A DNA stretch of 45,433 nucleotides, taken from contig DYOH01000021.1 in assembly GCA_020720625.1 (NCBI GenBank), positions 1-45,433 on the forward strand. The letters are read 5' to 3'. Below are positions 205 to 37,325 of this stretch, piece by piece. The stretch's first letter is position 1. The number at the start of each line of letters is the position of its first letter. Both the position numbers and the translations under genes were made by a program. The notes under the pieces are model-generated. The model was given only the letters and a program-made list of their open reading frames with translations. It was not told where the DNA came from and made no database searches. Source of the DNA: Acetofilamentum sp. Its GTDB lineage: Bacteria > Bacteroidota > Bacteroidia > Bacteroidales > DYOH01.

Positions 205-3200
205 ATGATTTCAAGAATTGTACATTTTTCGATTCAGAATAAATTCATTGTTGCGCTATTTGTCATGGCACTAATTGCCGCAGGAATTTATTCGATGAGG
301 AGTATTCCTATAGATGCAGTGCCCGATATTACAAACAATCAGGTGCAAATAGTAACCTCATCCACTTCACTTGCAGCGCAAGAGGTAGAGCAATTTATAA
401 GCTTTCCGGTAGAAATGGCTATGGCCAATATACCCAATGTTTTAGAAATACGCTCTATTTCAAGATTCGGATTATCCGTAGTCACAGTAGTTTTCAAAGA
501 TTTTGTACCCATTCTCGAAGCAAGGCAATTTGTGCAAGAACAAATTAATGTTGCACGCGAAAATATTCCGCAAGAACTGGGTACTCCTACCATGATGCCT
601 ATTACAACAGGTCTTGGTGAGATATACCAATATACTTTGCAGGTAGATTCTGCCTATCGCGAATTTTACGACCCCATGAAACTACGTACCATCCAGGACT
701 GGATAGTAAAACGACAATTAGCAGGCATTCCGGGTATTATTGAAGTAAGCAGTTTTGGAGGCTATCTTAAACAATACGAAGTATCGCTTTTCCCCGGTAA
801 ACTCAAAGATTTAAATCTAACAATTACCGATGTTTTTAAAGCACTGGAAACCAACAATCAAAATTCGGGAGGCAGCTACATAGAAAAAGGCCCAAACGCC
901 TACTATATTCGCACAGAAGGCATTGTAAAAAATATTGAAGATATTGAAAATATTGTGGTTTCACAAACCGGTAAAACTCCAATACTTATAAAAGATTTGG
1001 CCGAAGTAAAAATGGGTTTTCCACCTCGTTTTGGCGCCATGACCAAAGATGGAAAAGGTGAAACTGTGGGCGGAATTGCGCTCATGCTTAAAGGAGCCAA
1101 CTCGTCTGATGCCATAAAAAATGTTCAAAATAGAATAGCCGAAGTACAAAAAACACTGCCCGAAGGCGTTAAAATAGAACCTTATCTCGACCGTTCCGAT
1201 TTAGTAGGAAAAACCATTGGAACCGTTACGCGCAACCTTGTTGAAGGCGGTTTAATCGTAATTTTTGTACTGATTTTACTTCTTGGAAATTTCAGAGCCG
1301 GACTTATTGTGGCGTCTGTAATTCCACTTTCGTTATTCTTCGCCTTTATAATGATGAATATTTTTGGCGTTTCGGCAAATCTTATGTCATTGGGCGCCAT
1401 TGACTTTGGTATTGTTATAGATGGTGCAGTGGTAATTGTGGAAGCCATTTTACATACAGTGCACGGTAAATATAGTGGTAAAAAAATGACCCAAAAAGAA
1501 ATGGACGAATTAATTAGTGTAAACTCTGCTAGATTAATAAATTCATCGGCATTTGGAGTACTAATCATTTTGGTCGTTTTTATTCCCATAATGACATTGG
1601 TTGGGGTAGAAGGAAAAATGTTCAGACCTATGGCCCAAACTGTTAGCTTTGCCGTATTAGGAGCTTTAATACTATCGTTTACTTATGTTCCAATGATTTC
1701 GGCCTTGTTTCTCAATAAAAATATTGTAGAAAAAAGAACTTTGGCCGATAAAATCATGGACGCACTAAAAAGGAGATACAAACCTACCCTCGAAATTGCG
1801 CTAAACATCCCCAAGGTAGTAATTGCTAGCGCTATAGCGTTACTAATATCTGCTGCTTTGGCTTTTAACTTTATGGGACAAGAATTTATTCCAACACTCG
1901 AAGAAGGCGATTTAGCTATGCAGATGGCCATTAAGCCAGGAAGTTCGCTATCGGAAAGTATTAATGCAACAACAAAAGCAGAGAAAATACTTATGGAAAA
2001 CTTTCCAGAGGTAATACACGTGGTTTCAAAAATTGGAACTGCCGAAGTACCCACAGATCCCATGGCCGTTGAAGATGCCGATATTATGATTGTGCTAAAG
2101 GAAAAAGGTGAATGGACTTCGGCCAAAACAAGAGAAGAGTTGATAGAGAAAATGAAAGAGAAGCTAGATGCAGTAAAGGGTGCCTCTTTTGATTTTACCC
2201 AACCAATACAGCTTAGATTTAATGAATTAATGACCGGAGCTAAATCCGATGTTGCTGTAAAAATTTTTGGCGAAGATATGACAGAACTGGCAGCAAAAGC
2301 AGAAAAGGCGGCCAAAATTATTGAAAAAATACCCGGTGCAGGCGACGTAAAAGTGGAGCAAACCGATGGATTACCGCAAATATTAATTCATTTCGACAGA
2401 GCTAAAATTGCCACTTATGGTTTAAACATAAATGATGTAAATCAGATAGTTAGAGCTGCCTTTGCGGGCGAAAGTGCTGGTATTGTTTACGAGGGCGAAA
2501 AACGATTCGACCTGGTAGTTAGGCTTAACAAAGCCAGCAGGGAGCACATGGAGCTTGCAAGATTATACATTAATACGCCAAACGGACAAATGATTCCGCT
2601 AAACGAATTAGCAACAGTCGAATACAGTAACGGCCCTATGCAAATTTCCAGAGAGCAGGCGCAACGCAGAATTGTGATTGGAATTAACATCAGAAACCGC
2701 GATATAGCCAGTTTTATTGAAGAAGTAGAAACTAAACTAGATGCCGGTTTGAATCTAAAACCTGGCTATACAATAAAATATGGTGGTCAGTTCGAAAACT
2801 TACAGGCTGCAACAAAAAGACTAAAAATTGCTGTGCCAATTGCACTTGCACTCATTTTTATTCTGCTGTACATGGCATTTAACAGCTTTAAATATACGGC
2901 AATCATTTTCATGACAGTACCATTAGCTGCCATTGGCGGTGTAGCAACGCTTCTGATTAGAGGAATGCCGTTTAGTATCTCGGCAGGTGTTGGGTTTATT
3001 GCTTTATTTGGTGTTGCGGTGCTTAATGGTATCGTACTTATAAGCTATTTTAATAGACTAAAAGACGAAGGACAATTTGATTCTTTGCGCGATTTGGTTA
3101 TTGAAGGCGGATTAACCCGTTTGAGACCAGTTGTTCTTACTGCTGCTGTGGCATCGCTCGGATTTTTGCCAATGGCCATATCAACATCGGCAGGTGCCGA

Positions 3201-4500
3201 AGTTCAAAAACCACTGGCAACAGTTGTTATTGGCGGGCTAATAACTTCCACTTTTCTTACTCTAGTGGTATTACCAGTAATTTACTTTATTTTTGAAAAG
3301 AAAAGTTTTCGATTAAATAAACAAATTAGCGCAGTGATTGTACTATTCGGATTATTTTTGTGGCCAAATGTATCGGGAGCTCAAAAATTAAGCCTTAATC
3401 AAGCTATTGACTCAGCTTACAAATACAACGCATCCCTGAACATAAGCAATTTTGAAACCGAATTAGAAAAAATTAACCGAAAAACCGGATTTCTTCCGCA
3501 AAAAACTGGTTTGGCTCTGCAATACGGGCAAATAAACAGTCAGGTAAATGATTTTTCCTTGGAAATTTCGCAAAGCCTCGGGAATCCGCTTGCTTTAGTA
3601 AGTGCCCAAAAACTCAGTAAATCTAAACTTGAGGCCTTAAACGCTAATCATGCTCTTATCAAGAAAGAAGTAAAATGGCAATTACAAATGATTTGGGCCG
3701 AAACTAGCTACATCAAATCTAGAGTAAAAAATATAGAACAGCAAATGAAATTGCTCGATAATTTAAGTCAAAAAGCACAAAAACAATACAACAGTGGCGA
3801 TATTTCACTTCAGGAATATAAATTATTAGAAATTCCCAAAAACAGATTAATGCTTGATTATAAAAATCTTCTGGCACTGCTAAACTCAAAAATTGCCGAA
3901 TTAAAACTTTTAATTGGGAAAGATATTCAAGAATTTGATTTTGAGCCTGACATGGAAAACCTGACGAACGACTCTCTTTCGGCGGGTTTGCATCAGGATT
4001 TTAATTTGTATTACCAAAAAAATAAAGAAATTGCTCTAAGGCAAACAACATTAGCCAAAAGTAACTTATTTCCTGAGCTTTCGGTTGGCTATTTTCAGCA
4101 GTCTATTGATAATCAGAATGGATTTAAGGGTGTAATGGCAGATCTACAAATTCCGCTTACATCTTTACTAGGTAGAAAAGAAATTAGACAAGCAGCTGTG
4201 CAACTAAAAATAAACATTCAAAAACTAGACCTTCAAGCCAGTACCTGGGACTTAAATTATAGTATTATTCAAAATCAATATAACGAACTGATGCAGCTTT
4301 ACAATGCTGAAGGCAAAGAATGGCAAAAACAGGCCGATGAATTAATAGCATTGGTAAATACCGAAATAGAAAACGGTAATCAGAATTACTATTATTTTGT
4401 TCAGATTTACGCTCAAGCCTTGGCTCAGAAAGATAACTTCGACGATTTAATTAAACAAATATTTCAGGCAAAAGCCACTTATCAATATTATGCATTTTAA
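205..4500 (+). CDS. czcA: CzcA-type heavy-metal RND efflux pump fused to a TolC-like outer membrane channel
   Basis: This 1431-residue protein is predicted to export divalent metal ions (Zn, Co or Cd class) from the cytoplasm or periplasm using the proton gradient. Residues 1 to about 1035 form a full RND pump of the HME family. The fourth transmembrane helix carries the CzcA-type signature DFGIVIDGAVVIVE, with acidic residues D400, D406 and E413 placed as in CzcA proteins; CusA-type (Cu/Ag) pumps have a different motif here. After a second signal-like hydrophobic segment (about 1040-1060, ending SGAQ), residues to the end are an outer membrane efflux protein domain rich in long helices. Usual HME pumps are about 1040 residues, so the extra 370 are the fused channel, an arrangement known in Bacteroidota. 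The adaptor gene follows 12 bases downstream. The exact metal is not shown by sequence. Confidence 0.93.
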   Translation: MISRIVHFSIQNKFIVALFVMALIAAGIYSMRSIPIDAVPDITNNQVQIVTSSTSLAAQEVEQFISFPVEMAMANIPNVLEIRSISRFGLSVVTVVFKDFVPILEARQFVQEQINVARENIPQELGTPTMMPITTGLGEIYQYTLQVDSAYREFYDPMKLRTIQDWIVKRQLAGIPGIIEVSSFGGYLKQYEVSLFPGKLKDLNLTITDVFKALETNNQNSGGSYIEKGPNAYYIRTEGIVKNIEDIENIVVSQTGKTPILIKDLAEVKMGFPPRFGAMTKDGKGETVGGIALMLKGANSSDAIKNVQNRIAEVQKTLPEGVKIEPYLDRSDLVGKTIGTVTRNLVEGGLIVIFVLILLLGNFRAGLIVASVIPLSLFFAFIMMNIFGVSANLMSLGAIDFGIVIDGAVVIVEAILHTVHGKYSGKKMTQKEMDELISVNSARLINSSAFGVLIILVVFIPIMTLVGVEGKMFRPMAQTVSFAVLGALILSFTYVPMISALFLNKNIVEKRTLADKIMDALKRRYKPTLEIALNIPKVVIASAIALLISAALAFNFMGQEFIPTLEEGDLAMQMAIKPGSSLSESINATTKAEKILMENFPEVIHVVSKIGTAEVPTDPMAVEDADIMIVLKEKGEWTSAKTREELIEKMKEKLDAVKGASFDFTQPIQLRFNELMTGAKSDVAVKIFGEDMTELAAKAEKAAKIIEKIPGAGDVKVEQTDGLPQILIHFDRAKIATYGLNINDVNQIVRAAFAGESAGIVYEGEKRFDLVVRLNKASREHMELARLYINTPNGQMIPLNELATVEYSNGPMQISREQAQRRIVIGINIRNRDIASFIEEVETKLDAGLNLKPGYTIKYGGQFENLQAATKRLKIAVPIALALIFILLYMAFNSFKYTAIIFMTVPLAAIGGVATLLIRGMPFSISAGVGFIALFGVAVLNGIVLISYFNRLKDEGQFDSLRDLVIEGGLTRLRPVVLTAAVASLGFLPMAISTSAGAEVQKPLATVVIGGLITSTFLTLVVLPVIYFIFEKKSFRLNKQISAVIVLFGLFLWPNVSGAQKLSLNQAIDSAYKYNASLNISNFETELEKINRKTGFLPQKTGLALQYGQINSQVNDFSLEISQSLGNPLALVSAQKLSKSKLEALNANHALIKKEVKWQLQMIWAETSYIKSRVKNIEQQMKLLDNLSQKAQKQYNSGDISLQEYKLLEIPKNRLMLDYKNLLALLNSKIAELKLLIGKDIQEFDFEPDMENLTNDSLSAGLHQDFNLYYQKNKEIALRQTTLAKSNLFPELSVGYFQQSIDNQNGFKGVMADLQIPLTSLLGRKEIRQAAVQLKINIQKLDLQASTWDLNYSIIQNQYNELMQLYNAEGKEWQKQADELIALVNTEIENGNQNYYYFVQIYAQALAQKDNFDDLIKQIFQAKATYQYYAF

Positions 4501-16893: not shown

Positions 16894-17919
16894 TTATCTC
16901 CACTGTTTATTTTTTACCCATTGGGTTATAAAACAGGCATTTTCGTAAGGAGATTCGGGCAAAAATCCATGACCGAAATTGAAAACCCACTTTTGATTCT
17001 TTTTGCCAAATTGCAGATACTTTTGCAACTCAATTTCGATTTCATTTTGTGGGGAGAACACAAATCTTGGATCTAAATTACCTTGTAATCCTACATCCTG
17101 ATGCACAAATTTGCGGGCCAATTCTAATGGTGTTTGCCAATCAATGCTCACAAAATCACATATATCGGGCGTTATACTCATTATGCCAGTGCCAAATCCT
17201 TTTGGAAAAAAAATAAATGGTATATTACTCTCGCGAACTTTCGAAGCAATCATCTTTACCGAAGGCATAAACAATTCTTCGTATAATTCGTTAGAAATCA
17301 ATCCGGAATTTGTTTCAAAAAGCTGAAAAACTTCAACTCCGTGCTTAATTTGCTCCTCTACATAAACTAATGTAAGCTCGTTTACGGCTGCTATTAGTTT
17401 CTTGGTTTCGGTTTTGTGGGTAAAGAAAAACTGCACAGCATCTTTAAAGTCCGAACGACTACCCAAACCTTGTATCATAAAACTTAAAACAGTTAAAGGT
17501 GCCCCACAAAAACCAATTAATGGAATATTTGCCGGACGAGTAAGCATAATTTGGTCTATAACTTTGTAAATATACTCAAGCTTTTCAGGTTGCGGATTTA
17601 ATTTACTCAACGGATTAGCCATATTTTTAATAGGCGTATCGAAAACCGGGCCATTATCAGTAAATTCCAATCCCATGCCCAAAGCATGAGGAATTACCAG
17701 GATATCAGAAAACAAAATGGCTGCATCAACACCAAGATCGAAAACAGGCAATAATGTAACTTTTGCAGCTAACTCAGGATCTTGCATCATTTGCCAAAAA
17801 GTATATTTCTCTTTCAGGGCATTGTAATTAGGCAAAACCCTTCCGGCTTGTCGCATAAACCAAACCGGAGGACGAACGGTATCCTTTTTATGCAGCGTAT
17901 CTAAAAAAATAGAATTCAT
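16894..17919 (-). CDS. hemE: Uroporphyrinogen decarboxylase
   Basis: HemE removes four carboxyl groups from uroporphyrinogen III to give coproporphyrinogen III. The 341-residue product has the N-terminal signature RPPVWFMRQAGRVLPNY with the conserved arginines that bind substrate, ILFSDILVIPHALGMGL containing the key Asp region, GFCGAPLTVLSFMI and the C-terminal FNFGHGFLPESP. It is the final gene of the hem block, starting 19 bases after hemL, and ends against the bidirectional terminator shared with recA. Confidence 0.97.
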   Translation of the reverse strand: MNSIFLDTLHKKDTVRPPVWFMRQAGRVLPNYNALKEKYTFWQMMQDPELAAKVTLLPVFDLGVDAAILFSDILVIPHALGMGLEFTDNGPVFDTPIKNMANPLSKLNPQPEKLEYIYKVIDQIMLTRPANIPLIGFCGAPLTVLSFMIQGLGSRSDFKDAVQFFFTHKTETKKLIAAVNELTLVYVEEQIKHGVEVFQLFETNSGLISNELYEELFMPSVKMIASKVRESNIPFIFFPKGFGTGIMSITPDICDFVSIDWQTPLELARKFVHQDVGLQGNLDPRFVFSPQNEIEIELQKYLQFGKKNQKWVFNFGHGFLPESPYENACFITQWVKNKQWR

Positions 17920-17938
17920 TAAAATTTAATTATAAGAT

Positions 17939-19237
17939 TTATGAAACCAACTCCTTTAAAGCTTCAAAATTAGCTTCCAATGCCTTATCAATATGATGTT
18001 GTGAATGAGCATTAGAGATAAAAGAAGCTTCGAACTGCGAAGGAGCGAGATAAATGCCACTTTCGAGGGATTTTCGAAAATAACGGGCATACATATCGGT
18101 ATCACTTTGTGTGGCATCGTCGAAAGACTCCACTTTCTCGACACCAAAAAAAAGGGTAAGCATAGATTCCACCTGATTTACACAAGCAATTAGACCCAAT
18201 GCTTCGATATTTTTGCGCATTCCTTCGGCCAATTGCTTGCCCAAATTGCTAATTTTGGCATAAATTTTCTGATTATCGTTGAGCATGCGTAATCCAACCA
18301 AACCAGCTGCCATTGCCAATGGATTACCAGATAATGTTCCGGCTTGGTAAACAGGGCCATTGGGTGAAAGCATTTCCATAATTTGGCGTTTTCCACCATA
18401 AGCACCAACGGGCAAGCCACCACCGATAATTTTACCTAATGTGGTTAGATCGGGAGTAATGCCAAAATATTGCTGCGCTCCCCCGGGAGCGAGCCTAAAC
18501 CCGGTAATCACCTCGTCAAAGATTAGTAAAGTGCCAAATTTTTCGGTAATTGAGCGCAAAAAGCCCAAGAATCCATCTTTGGGAGCCACAACGCCCATGT
18601 TTCCAGCAACAGGTTCCACAATTACCGCAGCAATTTTTTCGCCCATCTTTTCAAAAATCTGTTCAACTGATTCTTTATTGTTAAACTTGGCAATGAGTGT
18701 ATTTTTTGCTATACTTTCGGGTACACCGGGGCTATTGGGTTCTCCTAAGGTAAGAGCGCCACTTCCGGCCTTAATGAGAAAACTATCAGCATGTCCATGA
18801 TAATTACCTTCGAACTTAAGAATAAACTCTCTTTTTGTGTAGGCTCTGGCCAATCTAATTGCGCTCATTGTGGCTTCAGTTCCCGAATTAACCATTCGAA
18901 CCAATTGCATTGCAGGCATCATAAGTTGAATTTGCTTTGCCATTTCGGTTTCGAGCAGAGTGGGCGCGCCATAGCTTGTACCCATTTCTGCGGCACTTTT
19001 AATTGCAGCCAAAATATCTTCCTGAGCGTGTCCCAAAATCATAGGCCCCCAGGAAGCAACAAAATCCAAATATTCGTTATTGTCAATATCGAAAACTTTT
19101 GCACCTTTTGCTCGGGCGATAAAAATAGGTTCAGTACCAACGCTTTTAAAAGCCCTTACCGGAGAATTTACGCCTCCGGGTATATATTGAATAGCTTCTG
19201 CAAAAGCCTTTTTGCTATTATTGGTGGTCATAATCAT
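17939..19237 (-). CDS. hemL: Glutamate-1-semialdehyde 2,1-aminomutase
   Basis: HemL is a PLP enzyme that converts glutamate-1-semialdehyde to 5-aminolevulinate, the second step of the C5 pathway. The 432-residue product has YIPGGVNSPVRAF near its start, LLIFDEVITGFR, and TLGKIIGGGLPVGAYGG with the PLP-binding lysine. The ATG at 19237 overlaps the hemB stop by one base (TGATG), which suggests translational coupling; a second ATG two codons later is an equally acceptable start. Length is typical (about 430). Confidence 0.97.
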   Translation of the reverse strand: MIMTTNNSKKAFAEAIQYIPGGVNSPVRAFKSVGTEPIFIARAKGAKVFDIDNNEYLDFVASWGPMILGHAQEDILAAIKSAAEMGTSYGAPTLLETEMAKQIQLMMPAMQLVRMVNSGTEATMSAIRLARAYTKREFILKFEGNYHGHADSFLIKAGSGALTLGEPNSPGVPESIAKNTLIAKFNNKESVEQIFEKMGEKIAAVIVEPVAGNMGVVAPKDGFLGFLRSITEKFGTLLIFDEVITGFRLAPGGAQQYFGITPDLTTLGKIIGGGLPVGAYGGKRQIMEMLSPNGPVYQAGTLSGNPLAMAAGLVGLRMLNDNQKIYAKISNLGKQLAEGMRKNIEALGLIACVNQVESMLTLFFGVEKVESFDDATQSDTDMYARYFRKSLESGIYLAPSQFEASFISNAHSQHHIDKALEANFEALKELVS

Positions 19238-20211
19238 CAGGATTTTAATAGTTTTGCAAATTCTTTGGCGTGATATGTAAGAATAATATCGCTTCCGGCA
19301 CGTTTAATAGATGTGAGAATTTCTTTTATCATTCTGGGTTCATCAATCCAGCCATTTTGAGCGGCAGCTTTAACCATGGCGTATTCGCCCGAAACATTGT
19401 AAGCTGCAATAGGCATGTTAAAAGTATCTTTTGCACGCCGAATAATATCGAGATAACTAAGTGCCGGTTTTACCATTACAATATCAGCCCCCTCGTATAT
19501 ATCTAATTCTATCTCGCGCATGGCTTCGTTAGAATTTGCCGGATTCATCTGATAAGAGTTTCTATCGCCAAATTTAGGAGCACTGTCGGCAGCATCTCTG
19601 AAGGGTCCATAAAATGCCGAAGCGTATTTTGCAGAATAGGCCATAATGGGCAACATGGTATAGCCATTTTCGTCTAAAGCCTCACGAATTTTCATCACCC
19701 GGCCGTCCATCATATCGCTTGGTGCAATCATATCTACACCCGATTGAGCAAATGTTATCGACTGAGCAACTAAACTACTAAATGTCAAATCATTATCTAC
19801 ATCATTATCCAAAATTACACCACAATGCCCGTGGGTTGTATACTCGCAATTGCAAACATCGGCAATAACGTACATTCCCGGAATAGCCTTTTTAATCGCC
19901 CTAATGGCTTTGGGAATGATGGCATCGTGCTCGGCCGCTATCATACCGGTATCGTCTTTGTGATCCGGAACTCCAAATAAAATTATTGCATTAACTCCTA
20001 AATCGTATAGTTCGATGCATTCTTCAACCAACATATCAATTGATAATTGGCTAATTCCGGGCATAGAATGAATAGGACTATTTTTTTTTGTGCCTTCGCA
20101 CACAAATAATGGCATTATCAAATCGTTGGTAGTTACCAATGTTTCAGAAACCATATTGCGCAAAACGGGGTTCTTGCGCAATCTTCTGAGTCGTGTTACA
20201 GGAAAATTCAT
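19237..20211 (-). CDS. hemB: Delta-aminolevulinic acid dehydratase (porphobilinogen synthase)
   Basis: HemB condenses two 5-aminolevulinate molecules to porphobilinogen. The 324-residue product has DVCNCEYTTHGHCG, whose three cysteines are the active-site zinc ligands of the Zn-dependent class, and GADIVMVKPALSYLD with the Schiff-base lysine near residue 245. The conserved FGDRNSYQMNP is also present. It lies eight bases after hemD and overlaps hemL by one base. Confidence 0.97.
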   Translation of the reverse strand: MNFPVTRLRRLRKNPVLRNMVSETLVTTNDLIMPLFVCEGTKKNSPIHSMPGISQLSIDMLVEECIELYDLGVNAIILFGVPDHKDDTGMIAAEHDAIIPKAIRAIKKAIPGMYVIADVCNCEYTTHGHCGVILDNDVDNDLTFSSLVAQSITFAQSGVDMIAPSDMMDGRVMKIREALDENGYTMLPIMAYSAKYASAFYGPFRDAADSAPKFGDRNSYQMNPANSNEAMREIELDIYEGADIVMVKPALSYLDIIRRAKDTFNMPIAAYNVSGEYAMVKAAAQNGWIDEPRMIKEILTSIKRAGSDIILTYHAKEFAKLLKS

Positions 20212-20218
20212 CGTATTT

Positions 20219-20995
20219 TTATTTTTTTAAATATTTGTAAATGCTTTCGGCAAGGTCTTCGAAGGTAGATTTAGGAGATTCAAGTGTAATGGGAAATCCT
20301 CTAAGGCTAATGAAACGGGATGTAGTTTTTCCGATGCTTGCAATTCTAAGGTTTTCTTTGTTATTGATATATTTTCCAAAATGTTGTAAAAAATTATCGA
20401 AACCAGATGGGCTTGTAAAAACAATGATTGAATAATCATCATTTTCGATTAATTCTTTAAACTCAGAATAAACCGATTTTACATAGGATGTGCGGTACAC
20501 ATCTATTCTTTTAACCCTTGATGTAATTTCTTTAATTTTAAGCATTAAGGAGTCGGGAGCCAAATTTCCTAAAACCAGCAAAACACTCTCCACGTTGGAT
20601 ATAACTTCCTGTTTATCAACTTCATGCATAAAATCTACAGATGTGCTTCCGGGATTTATAAAATCAACAGAATAGCCGTTTTCTTGCAGCACAAGAGCTG
20701 TAGGATTTCCAATGGCAGCAATTTTGTTTGAAGATAAATCGGGAAATTGATTTTTATATGATTTATATAATTCCAAAAAAGCCTTTACTCCGTTACGAGA
20801 TGTAAAGACCAACCAGGTAAAAACAGAGAGGTCGTCGAAATAGACTTTCATCTGTTGGTTCAATTCGATTGGTTCAATGTGTATTAATGGGAAATTAACC
20901 ACTTTTAAACGATTATCTTCAAGGAGCTTACCCAATCTTCCGGCTTGATCCGATTCTTGTGTAGTGATTACAATTTTAGGTTCTTTTTTTTTCAT
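20219..20995 (-). CDS. hemD: Uroporphyrinogen-III synthase
   Basis: HemD closes and inverts ring D of hydroxymethylbilane to form uroporphyrinogen III. The sequence of this family is poorly conserved, but the 258-residue product shows its usual landmarks: VFTSRNGVKAFLELY in the first half and IIVFTSPSGFDNFLQHFG followed by IASIGKTTS in the second, and it lies between hemC and hemB. It is a free-standing protein, not fused to HemC or to a methyltransferase as in some bacteria. The start is the ATG 29 bases after the hemC stop. Confidence 0.92.
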   Translation of the reverse strand: MKKKEPKIVITTQESDQAGRLGKLLEDNRLKVVNFPLIHIEPIELNQQMKVYFDDLSVFTWLVFTSRNGVKAFLELYKSYKNQFPDLSSNKIAAIGNPTALVLQENGYSVDFINPGSTSVDFMHEVDKQEVISNVESVLLVLGNLAPDSLMLKIKEITSRVKRIDVYRTSYVKSVYSEFKELIENDDYSIIVFTSPSGFDNFLQHFGKYINNKENLRIASIGKTTSRFISLRGFPITLESPKSTFEDLAESIYKYLKK

Positions 20996-21024
20996 CTAGG
21001 CCCGATTTGAAATTTTAGCGGTCT

Positions 21025-21945
21025 CTACAGCCTAATTCCGGCAAGTATTTCTGCTGCTCCATCTTGAAGCAGTCTTTTAGCCAAATCCCCGGCTAATTTT
21101 TCTGCATCTTCGATTCTTCCGCGAATACTATTCTTAATGAACTGTTTTCCATCAACATCGGCAACCATACCAAACATCTCAAAATCAACACCTTTCAGAT
21201 TTGTATAGCATGCTACCGGCAATTGACAACCGCCCTCTAAGATAGCTAAAAATTTCCTTTCGGCCAACCCTGCAATCCAAGATTCTTGATGATTTATTTT
21301 TTCTATTAGTTTTTGAGTCTCCAGATCACTCTCTCTTATCTCAACGCCAATAATACCTTGGCTTACGGCGGGGATAAATAAATCGTGGGGCAAAACTTCG
21401 GCAATATATTTATCGAGACCAAGCCGCTGAAGCCCTGCCGCAGCCATAATTGTTGCGTCGCAGTAGTTTTCTTCCAGTTTTTTTAAACGTGTATTAACAT
21501 TTCCTCTTATATCTATTACGCTAATTCCTGGAATTAAATTCAGAATTTGCGCTTTTCGCCTAACGCTTGATGTGGCAACTACATGTGATGCATTTAATTG
21601 GCTCCAGTTTTTTAATTTTAGACTAACCAATGCATCGCGAAATTCAGCTCTTTGGAGAACTGCGCCTAATTTTAGGCCTTCGGGCAATTCTGTAGGCAAA
21701 TCTTTTAAACTATGCACGGCCAGGTCTATTTCACCCTTTACAAGTGCCTCTTCAATTTCTTTTGTAAATAAACCCTTATCTCCAATTTTAGAAAGCGCCT
21801 GATCCAAAATTTTATCGCCTTTGGTTTTTATTATTTCCAACTGAAAATCAATATGTTTATATACGTCCTGAAGTTCATCTCTTACTTTATAGGCCTGATA
21901 TAAAGCCAATTGACTTCCTCTTGTTCCTATTTTAACTGTTTTCAT
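21025..21945 (-). CDS. hemC: Hydroxymethylbilane synthase (porphobilinogen deaminase)
   Basis: HemC polymerises four porphobilinogen molecules into hydroxymethylbilane. The 306-residue product starts KIGTRGSQLALYQA and contains DLPTELPEGL, the arginine-rich ATSSVRRKAQIL and DIRGNVNTRL, and the cysteine that carries the dipyrromethane cofactor in LEGGCQLPVACY. Its ATG overlaps the hemA stop by four bases (ATGA), suggesting coupled translation. Confidence 0.97.
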   Translation of the reverse strand: MKTVKIGTRGSQLALYQAYKVRDELQDVYKHIDFQLEIIKTKGDKILDQALSKIGDKGLFTKEIEEALVKGEIDLAVHSLKDLPTELPEGLKLGAVLQRAEFRDALVSLKLKNWSQLNASHVVATSSVRRKAQILNLIPGISVIDIRGNVNTRLKKLEENYCDATIMAAAGLQRLGLDKYIAEVLPHDLFIPAVSQGIIGVEIRESDLETQKLIEKINHQESWIAGLAERKFLAILEGGCQLPVACYTNLKGVDFEMFGMVADVDGKQFIKNSIRGRIEDAEKLAGDLAKRLLQDGAAEILAGIRL

Positions 21946-23195
21946 TTGGAAAAATCGAATAATTGATTTGCTAACTTAACAAGCTGCTTATTGTCGGCAT
22001 CTTGGGTTAGGTCGCGCATATTTTTAATTAATAAACGAGCAAATTTCTCGGTAATGTGTTTGGCATATTCGGCCACAATACTAGAATCGTTGATAGATTT
22101 AATGCGAATGAAGCCTTTGAGTTCTGTTTCGTTAATTTGGTGAAAATCTTGCTTAATTTTTTGAATCATGGGCACTATATCCTGTAGCAGCATCCACTCC
22201 ATGTATTCGTCTATCATCTTATTGATTAGTTTCATAGCGCAACCTATAGCAGACTGTCTTTTTTTATTGGTACTTTCTACTATCGCCTGCAAATCATCAA
22301 TTGAATAAAGCTGCACTCCTTCAATATCATTGGCATCGACGGGCAAATTGCGTGGTACTGATAAATCGATATAGATTTGTTTTTCGTGCCTGTTTAGCGC
22401 AGCATTTTTTATTTCTTCAACCGAAATCAATGCTTGCTGAGCATCGGTGGCCACAAAAATAATATCTATAGATGCTAAAGTTTGGTGTATCTGACCTAAA
22501 GCCAGTGCCATTCCATTAAATCTTTGTGCAAGTTCTTCTGCTTTTGATACAGTGCGGTTGGCTACAAACAAATTTTGAATACTGCGCTTATGCAAATTGG
22601 TAAGTACCAATTCTCCCGTTTTTCCGGCACCAACCATCAATATTTTTGCCGATTTTATGTTTGGGAACTCTCTAATAGCAACATCTACAGCAGCAGAACT
22701 TGCAGAACCGCTACCTTCGTTTATTTTTGTTTGCGTTCTTACCTTCTTGCCGGTTTCAAATGCTTTTAGAAACAAGCGAGTAAGGTATTTGTCGGGCGTT
22801 TTTAGTTCTTCTGCCAGGTAAAAGGCATCCTTAACCTGCCCCATAATCTGGTCTTCGCCTATAATTAAAGAATCTATTCCGGAAACTACTTTGTATAGGT
22901 GCTTTACTACTTCCTGGTCTTTGTAGAAATAGAAATACTCTTGCATTTCCGGAGCATAGGCTTTTAATTTAGTAAGAATTCTGATTATTTCTGAAAATTC
23001 ATTTTCCCCTTTCATATTGGGGCATGAGAAATATATTTCGGTTCTGTTGCATGTAGTTAATATAACTAACCCGGCTTCGCTAAAACTACTAAGTAATTCA
23101 TTAGAAAATATTTGTACTTCATTGGCAGAAAAAGCAAATTTTTCTCTAATTTGAACCGGGGCTAATTTAAAACTTGTACCTACCAATCCTATCAT
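21942..23195 (-). CDS. hemA: Glutamyl-tRNA reductase
   Basis: HemA reduces glutamyl-tRNA(Glu) to glutamate-1-semialdehyde with NADPH and is the committed and usually regulated step of tetrapyrrole synthesis. The 417-residue product has the catalytic cysteine in TTCNRTEIYF, GEDQIMGQVKDAF, the NADPH-binding MVGAGKTGELV and the C-terminal dimerisation helix. It is the first gene of the hem block, with a candidate -7 box about 20 bases upstream giving a very short leader; no riboswitch-sized leader is present. Confidence 0.97.
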   Translation of the reverse strand: MIGLVGTSFKLAPVQIREKFAFSANEVQIFSNELLSSFSEAGLVILTTCNRTEIYFSCPNMKGENEFSEIIRILTKLKAYAPEMQEYFYFYKDQEVVKHLYKVVSGIDSLIIGEDQIMGQVKDAFYLAEELKTPDKYLTRLFLKAFETGKKVRTQTKINEGSGSASSAAVDVAIREFPNIKSAKILMVGAGKTGELVLTNLHKRSIQNLFVANRTVSKAEELAQRFNGMALALGQIHQTLASIDIIFVATDAQQALISVEEIKNAALNRHEKQIYIDLSVPRNLPVDANDIEGVQLYSIDDLQAIVESTNKKRQSAIGCAMKLINKMIDEYMEWMLLQDIVPMIQKIKQDFHQINETELKGFIRIKSINDSSIVAEYAKHITEKFARLLIKNMRDLTQDADNKQLVKLANQLFDFSK

Positions 23196-35874: not shown

Positions 35875-36963
35875 TTATTCTTTGTCAGAAATTTGGCTTA
35901 AATCATTCACGTAGCAAAATTTAGGTTTTTCTGATGGTAATTCCCATAAATGTATAGAGCCACCCTGACAATATTTTGAGTACTCGCAATTTGCACAAAT
36001 GGTTTTTTTTATCCATTCTCTTTGTCTGAATTTATGAAAACCCTTATCCCAAAGTTGACCAAAATTATCGTTGAGAATATTTCCTTCGTAGAATGAATTA
36101 TGATTATTGGTGCAACCTGTGATTGTGCCATCGCTTAGAATTGATGCAATGCTTATTCCTGCTCTGCAAAAAAAAGGCTGATTGCGCAGTTTCATATCTT
36201 CTTCGAAGGGAAGATAGCCTTCGCAACTCAGATTTAAATCAAGTCCTTTGGTTTTGAATGTTTTTTTGTTTTGGGCAATCCATGTGAGTAATTCTTGTGT
36301 TTGACTAAAAGATAATTGGATCTCTGCATTATTTTGGGCACGACCACTAGGAAAAATTCTAAACAAACGCCACGAATTAATTCCTTTACTTAACAATAAG
36401 TTAGCTATCTGACTCAATTCGTTTAAATTCTTTGGGTAAACACAAGTAACTGCATCCTTGAATTTAATCTGAGATTTACCTAAAGCATCTAGGGCAATCA
36501 ATACCTTACGGAATGCAGAAGAACTATTTCGCAAAAAATTATGTGCATGCTCAAGTCCGTCTACACTAAGGGTAAGACTATAAATACCAGCATCTTCAAG
36601 TGCTTTCATACGGGTTATGTCGAGCAACATACCATTGGTTACAGTGCCCCACCGCATATTTTTTTGTTTAATATAAGCTCCGATTTTATCCAAATCTTTA
36701 TGCAATAGCGGCTCGCCTCCGGTAATTACAAAACTAAGTGATGTTCCATAATTTTGGTGCATGTAATCTATTATCCGAAACCAGCTTTCGGTAGTAAGTT
36801 CGGCTTTATTCACCGTAGATTTGCAATCCGATCCGCAATGCAGACAGTTTAAATTGCATCTCTGGGTTAGTTCCAGAAAAAGGTATTGTAAACGGTGCTC
36901 CGAAATTTCTAATTCCTTATAATATTGATAAATATTTGCCTGAATTTTCCGAAGAAACGACAT
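35875..36963 (-). CDS. Radical SAM/SPASM enzyme of the rSAM/lipoprotein system
   Basis: This 362-residue protein has the radical SAM cluster motif in TQRCNLNCLHCGSDC (C36, C40, C43), the GGEPLLHKD motif that binds SAM, and a C-terminal SPASM region with cysteines in FFCRAGISIASILSDGTITG, at C in TGCTNNH and in CANCEYSKYCQGGS, which would bind one or two auxiliary iron-sulfur clusters. SPASM enzymes commonly modify peptides or proteins. The ATG overlaps the stop of the small lipoprotein gene by one base (TAATG). This pairing matches the described but uncharacterised Bacteroidota rSAM/lipoprotein families (TIGR04133 with TIGR04134, from memory). The reaction is unknown; modification of the partner lipoprotein is an inference. 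Confidence 0.88.
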   Translation of the reverse strand: MSFLRKIQANIYQYYKELEISEHRLQYLFLELTQRCNLNCLHCGSDCKSTVNKAELTTESWFRIIDYMHQNYGTSLSFVITGGEPLLHKDLDKIGAYIKQKNMRWGTVTNGMLLDITRMKALEDAGIYSLTLSVDGLEHAHNFLRNSSSAFRKVLIALDALGKSQIKFKDAVTCVYPKNLNELSQIANLLLSKGINSWRLFRIFPSGRAQNNAEIQLSFSQTQELLTWIAQNKKTFKTKGLDLNLSCEGYLPFEEDMKLRNQPFFCRAGISIASILSDGTITGCTNNHNSFYEGNILNDNFGQLWDKGFHKFRQREWIKKTICANCEYSKYCQGGSIHLWELPSEKPKFCYVNDLSQISDKE

Positions 36964-37325
36964 TATTCAACTCTTAGTTCTAATGTAACGTCGATAGTAT
37001 CAGTTTTTTCAAAAGGAACTTCAGTTTTAATAAACTCGCCGCCATTATCGGAACCATCAACATCTTCAATCACTATTTTTTCAACTATTTCATTTTCGAA
37101 AAGGCCAAAATATGCAATCCCATTTTCATTGGTATAATTTGAAAGGCTATCGGTACCAGGGTTTACAATGCTTACTTTTAATCCTTTAATTGGATTGCCA
37201 CCATCATCTTTTGCACGAATTAAGCTATTATACATTTCATCAACAGGTACACCATAGCAAGCCGCTAATACAACAGCCATTGTTCCGGTACTTAAAAAAA
37301 CGAGTAATTTTTTTAAACGTTTCAT
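36963..37325 (-). CDS. Small lipoprotein partner of the radical SAM enzyme
   Basis: This 120-residue protein starts with a lipoprotein signal ending VVLAAC, with C23 as the lipidated residue, directly followed by YGVPVDEMYN. The mature part looks like one small immunoglobulin- or transthyretin-like beta domain (AKDDGGNPIKGLKVSIVNPG, NYTNENGIAYFGLF), rich in Asp, Asn and Gly, with no other cysteine. It overlaps the radical SAM start by one base, so the two are probably made in step. The CYGxP start beside a radical SAM/SPASM gene fits the TIGR04134-type partner lipoprotein (from memory). Its function and the presence of any modification are unknown. Confidence 0.82.
   Translation of the reverse strand: MKRLKKLLVFLSTGTMAVVLAACYGVPVDEMYNSLIRAKDDGGNPIKGLKVSIVNPGTDSLSNYTNENGIAYFGLFENEIVEKIVIEDVDGSDNGGEFIKTEVPFEKTDTIDVTLELRVE

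Follow-up and report, generated by a model that had tools for sequence, protein, structure and literature searches.

A Lipoprotein Gene Overlapping a Radical SAM/SPASM Gene

The window analyzed here, the whole 45,433-nucleotide contig DYOH01000021.1 of Acetofilamentum sp. (Bacteroidales; assembly GCA_020720625.1), contains a two-gene locus on its minus strand, in which a gene for a small putative lipoprotein precedes a gene for a radical S-adenosylmethionine (SAM)/SPASM enzyme. We propose that the former would encode the substrate and the latter its maturase. The original prediction for this locus had described the two genes as an uncharacterised modification system in which the lipoprotein stop and the enzyme start overlap as TAATG, and this overlap of one base was borne out. 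The features of the locus are as follows.

36963-37325, minus strand: lipoprotein precursor gene (putative substrate), 120 amino acids, product starting MKRLKK and reading LAAC/YGVPVDEMYN at the lipid site
35875-36963, minus strand: radical SAM/SPASM enzyme gene (predicted splicease), 362 amino acids
36961-36965, minus strand: TAATG stop/start overlap (TAA 36965-36963, ATG 36963-36961, one base common to both)
37260-37325, minus strand: predicted signal peptide, residues 1-22, with lipobox L-A-A ahead of C23 (from the sequence and the lipobox pattern)
37245-37259, minus strand: X-Y-G-x-P motif C23-Y24-G25-V26-P27, proposed modification site, in which X is the predicted lipidation cysteine itself
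37038-37064, minus strand: D88-x-D90-G-x-x-N94-G-G loop of the lipoprotein beta domain, conserved in alignment A3
36835-36858, minus strand: CX3CX2C radical SAM cluster motif (C36, C40, C43) within CNLNCLHCGS, whose HCGS is also found in XYG-associated enzymes
36223-36225, minus strand: C247 in a CEG motif, an extra cysteine specific to the family
35914-36168, minus strand: SPASM cysteines C266, C284, C323, C326, C332 and C350, each in 73 of 73 aligned rows

The signal peptide and the lipobox LAAC at residues 20-23 mark the product of the upstream gene as a putative lipoprotein. Its AlphaFold2 model (mean predicted local distance difference test score, pLDDT, 92.2) has a helix up to Y24, from which a short loop leads into a single beta domain with strands from 31 to 114, in agreement with the one beta domain foreseen earlier. 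Among solved folds, the best match is the N-terminal extension domain of a SusC transporter (9hfj), with CnaB- and transthyretin-like sandwiches ranking lower; a sequence search of the PDB with the lipoprotein gave chance-level matches only (best E 0.24). Across the 30 rows of the lipoprotein alignment A3, D88 and D90 are invariant and N94 and G96 nearly so, while the invariant Y, G and P of this alignment do not count as independent evidence because its rows were partly chosen for CYG.P (the dot standing for any residue).

The enzyme (AlphaFold2 model with a mean pLDDT of 94.8; nearest solved folds SkfB, BlsE, PqqE and SuiB) belongs to the radical SAM superfamily, as judged from its CX3CX2C motif and a score of 77.5 bits against Pfam Radical_SAM (gathering score 29.5). 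Pfam SPASM is also passed with 29.3 bits (gathering score 21.5), but the SPASM cysteine set is atypical. Usually this set forms a seven-cysteine pattern with CX2CX5CX3C. Here CX2CX5C (C323, C326, C332) is kept and the cysteine completing CX3C is missing, position 336 being G, A or S in all 73 aligned rows; the extra C247 is retained in 72 of the 73 and possibly replaces the missing auxiliary ligand. Of the two cysteine motifs named in the original prediction, the CxxxCxxC cluster thus stands as described and the SPASM set only in an altered form.

Family Membership

Among NCBIfam models, the enzyme fits TIGR04133 (rSAM_w_lipo) best, with 351.2 bits (350.9 in a six-frame search) at a cut-off of 425. 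For the lipoprotein, TIGR04134 (lipo_with_rSAM) is the sole NCBIfam model reported, with 19.7 bits (E 6.6e-4) at a cut-off of 39.8. Both are catalogued as 'hypoth_equivalog' models, and their names state no reaction. The link to these two families that had been drawn from the sequence alone is correct in that they are the best models for both genes and that the two-gene layout and the XYG-x-P motif are shared; in the wide sense of a lipoprotein and an enzyme encoded side by side on the same strand, the window pair is one of them. However, since both proteins score below the curated cut-offs, the pair is a sister subfamily of TIGR04133/TIGR04134 and not a formal member of these equivalogs.

In a tblastn search with the window enzyme, 11 loci from 11 genomes (L068-L078) gave 399-474 bits and the other TIGR04133 loci of that search at most 288. 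These 11 loci and the window enzyme form one clade with support 100/100 in a 74-row tree, and loci of other phyla that were found later (L149-L153) fall between, at 312-392 bits against the window enzyme. The window enzyme also reaches 110.8 bits against TIGR04103, which we take to be the PlpX family (cut-off 725), and 99.5 bits against TIGR03913 (cut-off 591.75). A second pair in the same genome (G000:C34:55596-57084; L001, L082) exceeds the cut-offs of both TIGR04133 and TIGR04134, with 493.7 and 80.5 bits. The site of this second pair reads MEYGTP and lies six residues past the lipid cysteine.

Distribution and Gene Pairing

Enzymes above the TIGR04133 cut-off were found in 3 of the 395 genomes of a phylum sample, the window's own genome included. 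An order sample of 393 genomes contained 95 with an enzyme match at E <= 1e-70 and 86 with one above the cut-off. A first scan of genome contigs with a single-protein query gave no matches. When a collection of species genomes was scanned with 12 enzymes, relatives were present in at least 580 of 592 stretches, of which the best 80 were used; the records are mostly from Bacteroidota and also from Fibrobacteres, Spirochaetes, Deltaproteobacteria, Myxococcota and Anaeromyxobacter oryzae. Pooling of the phylum, order, own-genome and other searches with these 80 stretches gave 166 enzyme loci, after removal of the duplicates L001, L002 and L006 and of two outgroup loci, L079 and L080, which score 241-247 bits and showed no partner. 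As the 166 still include some loci present in both collections (e.g., L145 and L072), counts by cluster are given as well.

The neighbors were surveyed as open reading frames (ORFs) of at least 60 amino acids within 4 kb, many loci having less flank than this (some about 1.5 kb on each side). By far the commonest neighbor was the lipoprotein family, which occurred in 139 of the 166 loci, with 157 copies upstream and 8 downstream of the enzyme and all 165 on its strand. The next commonest family was present in 17 loci only, on the same strand in 8 of them. The one-base overlap seen in the window is not general: counted up to where the enzyme match begins, the spacing ranges from overlaps of tens of bases to gaps of several hundred bases. 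In the order sample, 54 of the 57 genomes with a TIGR04134 lipoprotein (E <= 1e-8) also carry the enzyme (E <= 1e-70), compared with 95 of 393 genomes overall; the remaining 41 enzyme-bearing genomes had no TIGR04134 match at E <= 1e-8, and this model also misses the window's own lipoprotein. The check on co-occurrence that the original prediction had proposed was thus answered in its favor, and the pairing itself was borne out. Taken together, the lipoprotein and the radical enzyme constitute a two-gene unit that occurs in several bacterial phyla. No recurrent neighbor at the 166 loci pointed to a particular target of the product.

An X-Tyr-Gly(-x-Pro) Motif in the Partner Proteins

Comparing the partners side by side revealed that Tyr-Gly is constant while the position of the cysteine shifts. 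Within the window's clade, a CYG or KYG partner is present in 11 of 12 loci, and the twelfth (L076) ends 207 bases before the enzyme. We tested 1200 residue-pair patterns, without prior choice, in the ORF immediately upstream of the enzyme and in background ORF clusters. With a background that was not matched for length, and with clusters that are mostly distant members of one family and hence not independent, YG showed the largest excess of all 1200 patterns, occurring in 146 of 157 upstream ORFs and 65 of 74 clusters as against 54 of 242 background clusters. More specific was Tyr-Gly-x-Pro (YG.P), with 131 of 157 upstream ORFs and 55 of 74 clusters as against 2 of 242. These counts derive from lipobox-only and motif-free selections, an earlier listing chosen by Y[GASN].P not being counted. 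Of the 103 lipoproteins found at these loci at a distance above 2 kb, just 2 contain YG.P.

The original prediction had pointed to CYGVP directly behind the lipid site. Its Tyr-Gly proved to matter, but its place next to the lipid cysteine did not: among the 145 YG.P lipoproteins near the enzyme, the distance from the lipid cysteine to the tyrosine is 1 in 65 and between 2 and 75 in 80, and 41 of the 145 contain two to four YG. Such variable spacing and repetition are what an enzyme target, but not a sorting signal, would be expected to show. Over 177 YG.P sites, X is one of 12 residues (C 69, E 41, M 26, K 9, A 9, V 7, L 6 and others), and the second residue after the tyrosine (+2) is one of 14, including Gly in 4 sites.

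The motif is present even in partners that share no common homology. The 159 distinct YG.P neighbors fall into 7 homology groups, the main one comprising 150 and one being a singleton (L190) that is maybe a spurious ORF. Behind the enzyme of L083 lies a 118-residue peptide (2037-2393, minus strand) that has no lipobox and carries three VEC[IV]YGPPPG repeats, resembling a multi-core precursor of a ribosomally synthesized and post-translationally modified peptide (RiPP). The usual domain is likewise missing from the L084 partner, a lipoprotein with three KYG sites, and from the coiled-coil-like lipoproteins of L058, L061 and L116 and the 85-residue lipoproteins of L062 and L117, which keep the YG motif. 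In L122 (4176-6315, minus strand), a single enzyme is preceded by a tandem array of six exported proteins or lipoproteins, which are of several types and have one XYG apiece; the first of these proteins has no lipobox, and short lipoproteins lacking the usual domain are among them. Because the partners of L150, L151, L187, L198, L224 and L081 have XYG without the proline, we regard X-Tyr-Gly as the core. The common trait of the partners is therefore X-Tyr-Gly(-x-Pro) and neither a fixed cysteine nor the beta domain, a pattern that points to Tyr-Gly as very likely being the modified site. No XYG partner was seen at L147, L154, L195 and L090, nor at L076, L105, L121, L155, L192, L212 and L112, where there is little upstream sequence or the contig is broken.

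Some putative substrates (the DUF1843-type peptides of L012 and L140, and L073) have YA in place of YG, in the contexts LYAAGI, MYAASI and CYASQ. These may be decayed sites or may reflect a relaxed requirement for the glycine.

Lipoproteins Without the Enzyme

In three genomes (G618, G695 and G757), a TIGR04134 lipoprotein was present and no enzyme was found, searches with the model and a 73-row profile returning distant radical SAM proteins only (best 74 bits). The G695 lipoprotein reads AGNGSPYA where its relatives have EYGSPYA, and in that of G757 the site is deleted; that is, Tyr-Gly is lost and the domain kept in two of three enzyme-less genomes, a small number. When the lipoprotein copy lies on another contig of an enzyme-bearing genome, YG is kept in 11 of 12 loci (L236, L238-L247). 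Five of these loci (L242-L246) encode long relatives of 254-306 amino acids without a lipobox, in which AQYG follows right after the signal peptide and the enzyme is located on a different contig. It is possible that these proteins are substrates in trans.

Relationship of the Enzyme to PlpX-Type Spliceases

According to published work, PlpX-type spliceases target X-Tyr-Gly, where X is free and Gly is fixed (PMC10533398). PlpX acts naturally at MYG and LYG and also takes an engineered GYG (PMC10533398; PMC11002830). The tag PLFPIRPGYGLPI is accepted as well, and the accepted tags include ...PIRPGYGLPI with YG-x-P, whereas many tag placements in FtsZ are not accepted (PMC10533398; PMC11002830). 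Splicing is described as removing C8H9NO, a mass of 135.0757 Da, from the site (PMC10533398), and a review lists the PlpX family as IPR026482 (PMC11002830). The free X and fixed Gly of the partner proteins match this published rule, to which the window substrate conforms with C23-Y24-G25.

PlpX-type spliceases are, as far as sequences tell, among the nearest relatives of the enzyme outside its own family. In the 74-row tree, a group with support 99/97 unites the family with the PlpX-like rows and five sister rows (Y), and the NirJ2/AhbD-like rows (two of them identified as such) and other rows lie outside. Within the cluster motif, HCGS is present in 43 of the 45 rows of the family and in all 11 PlpX-like rows, but in none of the 5 sister rows (which have HCAS) and none of 13 others. 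In a comparison of profiles, that of the family reaches 425 with the PlpX-like profile A4 and 215 with the NirJ2/AhbD-like profile A5. Besides three TIGR04133-like records, the plasmid matches of the window enzyme are PlpX-like enzymes of Agathobacter, Aureibacter and Nostoc and one Rhizobium protein. The Nostoc plasmid enzyme passes the TIGR04103 cut-off of 725 with 853.1 bits; its precursor is of Nif11 type, ends in ALYGLPPELF and thus in a YG-x-P context, and is followed by a 71-residue protein. XYG peptides were found near 8 of the 11 PlpX-like rows (Nostoc, Agathobacter, Aureibacter, Azospirillum, L007, L012, L014 and L125). One protein of L007 (3003-3647, plus strand), of 214 residues and located behind a PlpX-like radical SAM enzyme, contains six KYGYP[CG] repeats.

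The window system thus resembles PlpX in its XYG target with a free X, the YG-x-P of known tags, the radical SAM/SPASM architecture, HCGS and the grouping in the tree, but its substrate is a signal-peptide lipoprotein that is presumably exported, and the SPASM cysteines of its enzyme differ. The TIGR03913 'GDL motif' maturase, which occurs with DUF1843 peptides, is also a related enzyme and has PYG near the N-terminus of the peptide; unlike the lipoproteins, however, these peptides are short and have no export signal.

Proposed Reaction and Alternative Explanations

The original prediction had assigned no reaction, and the motif now suggests one: the enzyme is probably a splicease that excises tyramine at Tyr-Gly. 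It would be a stand-alone enzyme acting on the lipoprotein precursor before export, and since it has, by reading, no signal peptide, modification should indeed precede export, as had been thought likely from the outset. The spliced precursor would then be exported, lipidated and anchored, which would place a reactive ketoamide at or close to the membrane anchor. The ketoamide would likely serve as a covalent trap, so that the lipoprotein could capture a protease or bind another nucleophile, because spliceotide products are described as protease inhibitors (PMC11117315; PMC10373908). At the window site, C23-Y24-G25, X would be the lipidated cysteine. More tentatively, and as a proposal that we find plausible rather than probable, the TIGR04133 family and its sister clade, which occur in Bacteroidota, Spirochaetes, Fibrobacteres, Myxococcota and others, would edit the backbone of exported lipoproteins; in 65 of the 145 partners the spliced residue would be the lipidated cysteine, and the anchor would become a lipidated alpha-keto-beta-amino acid, a genetically encoded electrophile of the envelope.

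Several observations weigh against splicing. Compared with the Plp system, the window substrate has no Nif11 leader, its enzyme reaches just 110.8 of the 725 bits set for TIGR04103, and no gene resembling PlpY, which carries a RiPP recognition element (RRE), recurs: among ORFs of at least 60 amino acids at the 166 loci there was no second recurrent neighbor on the same strand. Single models that exceed TIGR04103 for the window enzyme are AhbD (135), NirJ2 (117.5), NirJ (114.5), TIGR04053 (112.9) and TIGR04347 (111.9), and the SPASM cysteine set is altered relative to the usual pattern. A reduced tree without the distant rows leaves the root unfixed, with midpoint rooting joining the NirJ2/AhbD-like to the PlpX-like rows, and gives the group of PlpX-like and Y rows a support of merely 84/40. 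In the profile comparison (425 against 215), A4 is more diverse than A5, and this favors its score. No XYG peptide was seen among the neighbors read for the PlpX-like rows L016, L126 and L144, or beside the five sister rows, save for ORFs in L008 and L011 that are doubtful and very short. YG is absent from 11 of the 157 upstream ORFs, several of which resemble spurious ORFs or cut contigs, and from the paralogue L237 of the enzyme-bearing genome G521. Conversely, the G618 lipoprotein retains AQYGAIE without the enzyme, and the absence of the enzyme from G618, G695 and G757 is not certain because these assemblies are only 94, 95 and 75% complete.

The same X-Tyr-Gly site could instead undergo a different radical chemistry of tyrosine, namely cyclophane formation to the +2 residue, an ether or C-C crosslink, epimerization or cleavage between C-alpha and C-beta. 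We regard this as unlikely but deserving serious consideration, given that the motif marks the site and not the chemistry, that SPASM enzymes of many reactions score close to the window enzyme and that SkfB, BlsE, PqqE and SuiB are its nearest solved folds. Maturases of three-residue cyclophanes (triceptides) need a beta carbon at the third ring residue. Val26 provides one in the window, but the +2 residue is variable throughout the family (14 residues seen), and a tyrosine cyclophane to this position is disfavored because in 4 of 177 YG.P sites it is Gly, where closure through a +2 beta carbon is impossible. Against the whole class of alternative tyrosine chemistries, the fixed Gly and free X equal the XYG rule as published (PMC10533398). 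A thioether of the sacti- or ranthipeptide kind, formed at the cysteine preceding the tyrosine, would make use of the window's Cys-Tyr neighborhood, which 65 of 145 lipoproteins also have, yet we consider it exceedingly improbable: the cysteine concerned is the predicted lipidation site, X is cysteine in just 69 of 177 sites and no other cysteine is conserved in alignment A3.

That CYG is merely lipobox context or a sorting signal, the enzyme acting elsewhere, for example on a tetrapyrrole, appears quite improbable to us. AhbD and NirJ2 are radical SAM/SPASM enzymes like the window enzyme, which the AhbD and NirJ-type models score at 114-135 bits, and a heme synthesis cluster is seen by eye about 12.7 kb off in the window. 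However, the motif is also found 2-75 residues past the cysteine, is repeated, occurs where the protein lacks a lipobox (L083; L122, first protein) and is mostly missing from far lipoproteins (2 of 103 with YG.P). Moreover, the 74-row tree parts the family from the NirJ2/AhbD-like rows, whose substrates are tetrapyrroles, and none of the 14 commonest neighbor families within 4 kb at the 166 enzyme loci consists of heme genes. Alternatively, the lipoprotein might be a partner of the system, sensing the modified product or serving as its chaperone, with the true substrate encoded elsewhere. Although the two genes are nearly always together and the beta domain is conserved outside the motif, this is very hard to reconcile with the fact that XYG remains where the domain is missing (L083, L084), and that genomes without the enzyme keep the domain but have lost Tyr-Gly in two of three cases.

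Implications of the Proposed Lipoprotein Splicing

The presence of the Tyr-Gly tag even in unrelated partners suggests a backbone excision of tyrosine, a chemistry hitherto known from another enzyme family. An orphan and widespread pair of families thereby gains a definite prediction, namely that a named dipeptide should lose 135.08 Da. If true, backbone splicing by radical enzymes would be a route of envelope lipoprotein maturation too, beyond natural-product chemistry, and its reach would extend to Bacteroidales, Parabacteroides distasonis and Phocaeicola massiliensis among them. It would also raise the question of how Lgt and LspA treat an edited lipobox cysteine. Since the enzymes seemingly need neither a RiPP leader nor a helper protein, they would be useful for installing ketoamides in proteins. 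In a literature search of partial coverage, so that an earlier description is possible, no publication was found that names the TIGR04133/TIGR04134 pair or spliceotide lipoproteins.

Other Features of the Window

The S9 peptidase and XseA genes next to the pair were considered as parts of the system and rejected, as they lie beside the enzyme in 1 of 166 loci, namely the window itself. The heme synthesis cluster mentioned above spans positions 16894-23195 (minus strand) and appears by reading to comprise early genes resembling hemE, hemL, hemB, hemD, hemC and hemA. At 205-4500 (plus strand), the window further encodes a 1431-residue efflux pump of the resistance-nodulation-division (RND) type that, also by reading, seems to be fused to a TolC-like outer membrane factor.

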